Source of the DNA: an uncultured Candidatus Saccharimonas sp.
GTDB taxonomy: Bacteria > Patescibacteriota > Saccharimonadia > Saccharimonadales > AQU-01
Reading direction: 5' to 3'
Assembly (NCBI GenBank): GCA_943358095.1
Contig: CALRGT010000002.1
Span: 1 to 32,781, forward strand
Length of the DNA: 32,781 nt
Positions 26,280 to 26,580 of the stretch are shown one piece after another. The notes under the pieces are model-generated. The model saw nothing but the letters and a program-made list of their open reading frames with translations, was not told the origin of the DNA and made no database searches. How positions within the stretch are numbered: position 1 is the stretch's first letter; each line of letters opens with the position of its first letter. Position numbers and translations under genes: made by a program.

Positions 26280-26356
26280 TGGTGGGCGATAAAGGATTCG
26301 AACCTTTCACCTCCACAACGTCAATGTGGCGCTCTAGCCAAATGAGCTAATCGCCC
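26280..26356 (-). tRNA. tRNA-Val(GAC), CCA encoded
   Basis: Minus strand GGGCGATTAGCTCATTTGGCTAGAGCGCCACATTGACGTTGTGGAGGTGAAAGGTTCGAATCCTTTATCGCCCACCA. Confidence 0.94.
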
Positions 26357-26360
26357 GGAT

Positions 26361-26580
26361 TAATCCGGTAAGGGCTATAAAAACAGGTTGTTAAGTCATT
26401 TGGCCAGAGCGCCAGGCGCACTATTCTGATTTTGTGGCTTTGCCACCCCAAATGAGCTATTCGACCGGGGTAATCCGGTAAGGGCTATAAAAACAGGTTG
26501 TTAAGTCATTTGGCCAGAGCGCCAGGCGCACTATTCTGATTTTGTGGCTTTGCCACTCCAAATGAGCTAATCATCCGATT
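26361..26580 (-). repeat. Two-unit 110-bp tandem repeat carrying tRNA-Val D-arm sequence in both orientations (element E)
   Basis: TAATCCGGTAAGGGCTATAAAAACAGGTTGTTAAG… at 26361 and again at 26471. CCAAATGAGCTA at 26338 (tRNA), 26448 and 26558, all spaced 110 bp. Confidence 0.9.

Follow-up and report, generated by a model that had tools for sequence, protein, structure and literature searches.

Analysis of the window, that is the whole 32,781-nt stretch of the Candidatus Saccharimonas sp. contig CALRGT010000002.1 considered here, located a short tandem array directly upstream of an intact gene for tRNA-Val(GAC) on the minus strand. The assembly under study (G000) comprises 693,851 bp in 15 contigs and is about 90% complete. 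Judged by the Tgt protein, its nearest named relative is a Candidatus Saccharibacteria MAG, at 71% identity. The tRNA segment CCAAATGAGCTA occurs at 26338, 26448 and 26558, as the initial annotation reported, and at these positions only; since the first of the three copies is the tRNA-Val gene itself, the array consists of two full 110-bp units upstream of it. The features of the locus are as follows.

26280..26356, minus strand: tRNA-Val(GAC), the intact (restored) copy, with encoded CCA (ARAGORN, Rfam)
26355..26368, no strand assigned: hairpin at base 1 of the real tRNA, CCGG..CCGG (read from the sequence)
26357..26466, minus strand: unit 1, the one next to the tRNA, 110 bp, running from displaced base 1 up to the base that precedes the real tRNA (TRF, repeat finder, self-comparison)
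26372..26397, minus strand: leader of the real tRNA-Val, with TTAACA (sequence)
26391..26414, plus strand: inverted copy of the D-arm in unit 1; 24 nt with 88% complementarity to the tRNA
26420..26433, minus strand: A-rich linker AAAATCAGAATAGT of unit 1 (sequence; similar linkers occur in other units of this class)
26434..26446, minus strand: GTGGC-AAA-GCCAC, the hairpin by which unit 1 interrupts the D-loop (sequence, predicted fold, own versus swapped arms)
26448..26466, minus strand: displaced tRNA bases 1-19 of unit 1 (sequence comparison)
26464-26479 and 26574-26587, no strand assigned: counterparts of the base-1 hairpin at the displaced copies (read from the sequence)
26467..26576, minus strand: the distal unit 2, also 110 bp, which matches unit 1 at 104/110 positions (TRF, repeat finder, self-comparison)
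26501..26524, plus strand: inverted copy of the D-arm in unit 2; 24 nt with 88% complementarity to the tRNA
26530-26543, minus strand: A-rich linker, unit 2 counterpart
26544-26556, minus strand: hairpin GTGGC-AAA-GCCAC, unit 2 counterpart
26558..26576, minus strand: displaced tRNA bases 1-19 of unit 2, probably the original 5' end (sequence comparison; TATAAT-like hexamer upstream)
26595..26600, minus strand: TATATT, which lies upstream of the distal fragment and could be the -10 hexamer of a native promoter (match to the consensus only)

Read on the tRNA strand, each unit is ordered as tRNA bases 1-19, the hairpin GTGGC-AAA-GCCAC, the A-rich linker, the hairpin GCGC-CTG-GCGC, whose second arm is the start of the inverted copy of the tRNA D-arm, and the leader bearing TTAACA. 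Bases 1-19 correspond to the acceptor 5' strand, the D-stem 5' strand and the D-loop up to GG. Each of the three copies has the short hairpin at base 1, formed by different base pairs (CCGG..CCGG, ACCGG..CCGGT and TCCGA..TCGGA). The array had been described as exact: both TRF and the repeat finder indicated a 110-bp period without indels between the units, so that the period is indeed exact, but the sequence is not. We agree that the units are recent or homogenised tandem copies. The complementarity of 17/19 between the inverted D-arm copy and the tRNA was recovered over the stretch originally compared. In the predicted fold the stem TCATTTGG/CCAAATGA encloses GTGGC-AAA-GCCAC as proposed, but the other enclosed hairpin, given as GCGCC-A-GGCGC, is better read as GCGC-CAG-GCGC, because a hairpin loop of 1 nt is impossible.

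Neither the Val unit nor its core CAGGTTGTTAAGTCATTTGG has a further copy anywhere in the 694-kb assembly, the search for the core returning the tRNA-Val locus only. The association with the tRNA holds, the units being built on its 5' end and D-arm, and a satellite or REP family unrelated to tRNAs does not describe them, as the unit is confined to a single locus and the element cores of other genomes are mostly next to tRNAs. The array carries no gene and hence no integrase gene. Among about 30 Saccharibacteria orthologues of this tRNA-Val, three carry the units (G000, G001 and G033). At the distal copy, upstream identity extends 1 nt beyond G1. The repeat noticed earlier is real, but is better seen as a displaced 5' fragment of the tRNA, from exactly G1 into the D-loop; such a fragment is the signature that integration into a tRNA gene leaves.

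Each tRNA was aligned with its own flanks, the 99.9th percentile score of shuffled flanks being 26, and two classes of units were distinguished. In the 3'-side (T) class, found downstream, the T-arm is repeated in inverted form at about +42 to +59 and the stretch from the T-loop to CCA in direct form, with a period of mostly 110-195 nt. In the 5'-side (D) class, found upstream, bases 1-19 recur as a direct copy and the D-arm as an inverted one. Direct 3'-copies were identified downstream of 15/36, 17/38, 11/40 and 4/17 tRNAs in four Saccharibacteria genomes, the last of them only partly sampled, and none was found in the upstream flanks or the shuffled flanks of the same four genomes; the corresponding numbers of tRNAs with 5'-copies upstream were 4/36, 4/38, 12/40 and 0/17. 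About half of the tRNA genes of the genome studied carry small folded units. The initial view of the Val units as a D-arm version of a T-arm element design was right and understated; they have their design in common with the T-arm elements of other tRNAs. The window contains the following 3'-side units.

15526..15664, plus strand: unit at tRNA-Arg(CCT), whose end is a displaced fragment from the T-loop to CCA (15648-15664)
20497..20617, minus strand: unit at tRNA-Thr(CGT), with a core common to the Phe, Asn and Arg(CCT) units
20898..21190, plus strand: two units at tRNA-Asp(GTC)

The boundaries of the copies follow those of the mature tRNA. Nearly all T copies begin inside the T-loop and 38/45 end at most 2 nt from CCA. 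D copies begin at base 1 and finish in the D-loop; in some genomes the end is also found at base 11, within the anticodon loop or within the T-loop, and tandem duplications that include flank account for most exceptions. Upstream identity beyond G1 was at most 4 nt in 16/20 5'-copies. Compared with the other tRNAs of the genome, the copies matched their own tRNA best in 41/46 (T) and 11/14 (D) cases, while the inverted T-arm copies were less tRNA-specific (13/30). In the 20-kb stretches from G000 and G033 nearly all copies share the strand of their tRNA and lie on the side expected of them, with three exceptions. The intact tRNA accompanied by a displaced end fragment on the same strand, by which tRNA-targeting integrative elements are recognised, is thus present, as is identity halting at the mature tRNA end. 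A restored gene together with a displaced fragment is the signature used for mapping islands in tRNA genes (PMC4383910; PMC9897764).

Some units carry genes, and the hairpin followed by the 3'-fragment forms the end of gene-less and gene-bearing units alike. At the tRNA-fMet of G000, 3'-copies at +170, +1688 and +3450 delimit a three-unit array with genes for small membrane proteins, an HAD-like hydrolase (below the Pfam cut-off) and an SDR oxidoreductase, and tRNA-Lys(TTT) of the same genome has a 3'-copy at +1111. A copy at +732 from the tRNA-fMet of G096 accompanies an RNase T-like exonuclease gene (RNase_T); this genome belongs to another family, and its fMet cargo differs from that of G000 while the hairpin core is 91% identical. 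Copies were also found at +636 from tRNA-Lys of G131, with a GIY-YIG gene, and at +181 and +3396 from tRNA-Gly of another genome. No gene-bearing 5'-side unit was seen in the 20-kb stretches searched (G000, G033). G076 and G013, which belong to different families, contain identical stretches that may be contamination or a recent transfer.

Large serine recombinases (PF00239 and PF07508) are common in the order, PF00239 being present in 67/99 genomes; none was found in G000, at its completeness of about 90%. In the first five genomes 6/7 large serine recombinase genes converge on a tRNA 3' end. In a set of 25 large serine integrase loci, the 3' end lay inside or at most 30 nt from a convergent tRNA at 18; the 5' end did so in 0/25. 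The 18 are not all independent, as one G033 locus also belongs to the earlier set and some of the genes are related to each other and share a tRNA. The tRNAs met by these 3' ends are fMet, Glu, Leu, Pro, Gln, Lys and Ser. Islands in tRNA genes are known to contain integrases whose reading frame runs across the site (PMC4383910). Six tRNA-docked islands have a displaced 3'-fragment on the tRNA strand about 4.5-18 kb away, behind a hairpin core; the far ends of five consist of the hairpin core and the 3' fragment, and that of the sixth is a mini unit. No far-end copy was detected in the stretches fetched around the other islands searched. In G036 the core of the island and the mini unit found at tRNA-Arg(CCT) share 82% identity over 98 nt, and island and mini unit appear to stand in tandem there; the core of the G021 island matches a G033 mini unit (E 1e-6). 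The cores of the other islands are alike in layout more than in sequence. An integrase gene is thus absent from the Val array but present in islands of other genomes; the initial annotation missed both the gene-bearing units and these serine-integrase islands with the same far-end structure.

Most T units fold better than dinucleotide shuffles, with z mostly between -2 and -8. In the D units of three genomes (7-8 different sequences, arms read by hand) the arms paired with their own partners at 0.95 and 0.96 and with swapped partners at 0.58 and 0.38, so that the structure is more than chance. Such strong and conserved folds could mean selection for an RNA or for a DNA function. At gathering thresholds Rfam identified tRNA only, and its weak sub-threshold matches overlap tRNAs. 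Cores are common to different tRNAs of one genome (Phe/Asn, 86% over 96 nt; Arg/Pro, 93% over 54 nt), and BLAST with four query cores gave matches in 25/148 genomes of the order, query genomes included, mostly 50-140 nt downstream of a tRNA and on its strand; six core loci had no called tRNA, three of which have a truncated tRNA at a contig edge. A recurring hairpin with the loop TA..TTT and a variable A/T-rich stem (AAAAGTAATTTTCTTTT and relatives) occurs in many T units of different genomes, and from its sequence looks like a binding motif. Some 5'-side units of G033 and G001 share a core family with 3'-side units of G036 (E 1e-11, 3e-11 and 4e-10), which ties the two classes together. No homologue of the Val hairpin core was detected among the 3'-side cores, and its link to the integrases is therefore one of shared layout. 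The leader motif TTAACA is enriched at tRNAs bearing D units (9/20 vs 7/94), while TATAAT-like hexamers showed only a trend in a general promoter test. At the Val locus a TATAAT-like hexamer precedes the distal copy and the TTAACA leader precedes the real tRNA, which fits displacement from a native promoter.

We favour, at a probability of roughly 0.55, the reading that the Val array arose as a gene-less integrative unit at tRNA-Val(GAC) which was then duplicated in tandem. A small DNA unit would have inserted into the D-loop of the tRNA-Val gene, bringing its own tRNA bases 1-19 and a new leader, so that tRNA-Val stayed whole; the original 5' end would have been pushed upstream, where the distal fragment may be its remnant. 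The structured end of the unit would be made up of the hairpin, the A-rich linker and the inverted copy of the D-arm, by analogy with the hairpin core and 3' fragment on the 3' side, and tandem duplication of the inserted unit would have produced the 110-bp period. The 3'-side units of this kind are located at T-loops and are able to carry genes, and islands encoding tRNA-docked large serine integrases have the same far-end structure. The best candidate enzymes for integration and excision, acting in trans, would be the tRNA-docked large serine integrases or relatives now absent from G000. The class as a whole would then consist of tRNA-anchored integrative units, mostly gene-less and probably remnants or minimal forms of mobile elements, and would lack a host function. 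The enzyme, the mobility and the function of the units, like the order of events, are what we infer, least firmly for the 5'-side class. Several results count against integration: the Val array holds no integrase, no serine recombinase was found in G000, no 5'-side unit with genes was seen in the stretches searched, the Val core has no detected homologue on the 3' side, and the folds are strong and conserved. The occurrence of one core family at many tRNAs, each with the correct fragment, is a further difficulty.

A host-made origin, in which replication fold-back or template switching at the tRNA arms was followed by slippage into arrays, would dispense with a mobile element. Inverted and direct copies of the same arm within units would be expected from it, quasi-palindromes and tandem repeats are typical slippage products, and near-perfect tandem repetition is seen in the arrays at Val, Gly(TCC), Gln and Ser; we nevertheless regard it as unlikely, as the different tRNAs and genomes have cores in common that do not derive from tRNA, the copies stop exactly at the mature tRNA ends, and the same layout is found in gene-bearing units and integrase islands. 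Less likely still is a functional RNA in the tRNA-Val leader, whose inverted D-arm copy would base-pair with the D-arm of the tRNA itself and thereby regulate how pre-tRNA-Val folds or is processed. The predicted minimum-energy fold of leader plus tRNA does pair the D-arm with the inverted copy, with loss of the cloverleaf, and the region has a z of -5.3, but about 27/30 tRNA-Val orthologues have no unit and T-class units are positioned behind terminators. The arms co-vary, as they would equally in a structured DNA site, and of 58 units 38 have the better fold on the sense strand and 20 on the antisense, a bias too weak to separate RNA from DNA. A known structured RNA family was rejected, since Rfam gave tRNA and tRNA cross-matches only.

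Y1 transposases act on imperfect hairpins, and the genome holds one gene of this kind, RAYT-like, at L073:1309-1926 (G000 C2, about 97.4-98.0 kb), flanked by copies of the TTCCAAGGTGAGACCTTGGAA palindrome. That this single RAYT-type enzyme moved the units as REP/REPIN-like elements seems very improbable to us: some G033 cores are inverted hairpin pairs of REPIN-like form, but the palindrome on either side of the RAYT gene is a different one (CCAAGGTGAGACCTTGG), its own REP TTCCAAGGTGAGACCTTGGAA is absent from the tRNA units, tRNA-specific ends are foreign to REPs, and the Val unit, present at a single locus and unique in the genome, is not a dispersed REP. A palindrome related to TTCCAAGGTGAGACCTTGGAA lies at 26977-27000 of the window, between the tRNA-Val array and thrS, and self-comparison of the window located a perfect 36-bp palindrome at 32627-32662. 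Priming of reverse transcription by tRNA, which would explain the exact CCA ends, was discarded because G000, G001, G033 and G005 contain no reverse transcriptase. An integron or tycheposon enzyme was likewise discarded, each of six genomes having one tyrosine recombinase of Xer type and no other; that of G000 is encoded at 13766-14689 of the window on the minus strand.

Returning to integrative units as the preferred reading, a wider proposal can be made only tentatively, and we consider it more doubtful than the origin of the Val array given above. Gene-less mini-elements tailored to tRNAs, on the 5' and the 3' side, would owe their mobility to large serine integrases acting in trans, a clade with a specialisation for tRNA genes, and, together with gene-bearing units, would form integron-like tRNA-anchored arrays, of which the Val array would be an active, copy-variable 5' member. 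The class of units is of more interest than the Val array alone. Island finders discard candidates below 2 kb and presume tyrosine integrases, while most of the large serine integrases examined end in tRNA genes. If true, the proposal would provide a route of gene gain for Saccharibacteria, which are reduced and depend on hosts. It would also offer a natural collection of integrases specific for tRNA T-arms, as well as a test case of attachment-site re-tailoring between tRNAs.

The units resemble integron cassette arrays in being small, with or without genes, each closed by one folded site, and in having one fixed anchor. They differ from these in that they are anchored at a tRNA gene which has to remain intact, the unit ends are tRNA-specific, and there is no integron integrase but one Xer-type tyrosine recombinase only. 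Tycheposons of marine bacteria also carry genes, lie at tRNA genes and include partial copies of the tRNA; they are kilobases long and use tyrosine recombinases, whereas no such recombinase is present here. As in MITEs and REPINs, the units are short, gene-less, folded, present in many copies and probably moved in trans, but they have no fixed terminal repeats, are tailored to each tRNA and lie almost only beside tRNAs. The intact tRNA with a displaced fragment on the expected side and strand, and the tandem arrays, are shared with islands and prophages of the Islander class (PMC4383910), from which the units differ in size (0.1-0.2 kb), in the absence of genes, in the folded end, in occupying up to half of a genome's tRNAs and in being associated with serine rather than tyrosine integrases. 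Islander lists 159 islands with 5' and 3760 with 3' fragments (PMC4383910), while 5'-side units are relatively frequent here. A literature search returned no description of such units, which is weak evidence of novelty as most subscription journals were outside its scope. The logic is that of the known tRNA-targeting islands; what differs is the size and number of the units, the folded end, the 5'-side units, the tandem arrays and the serine integrases.
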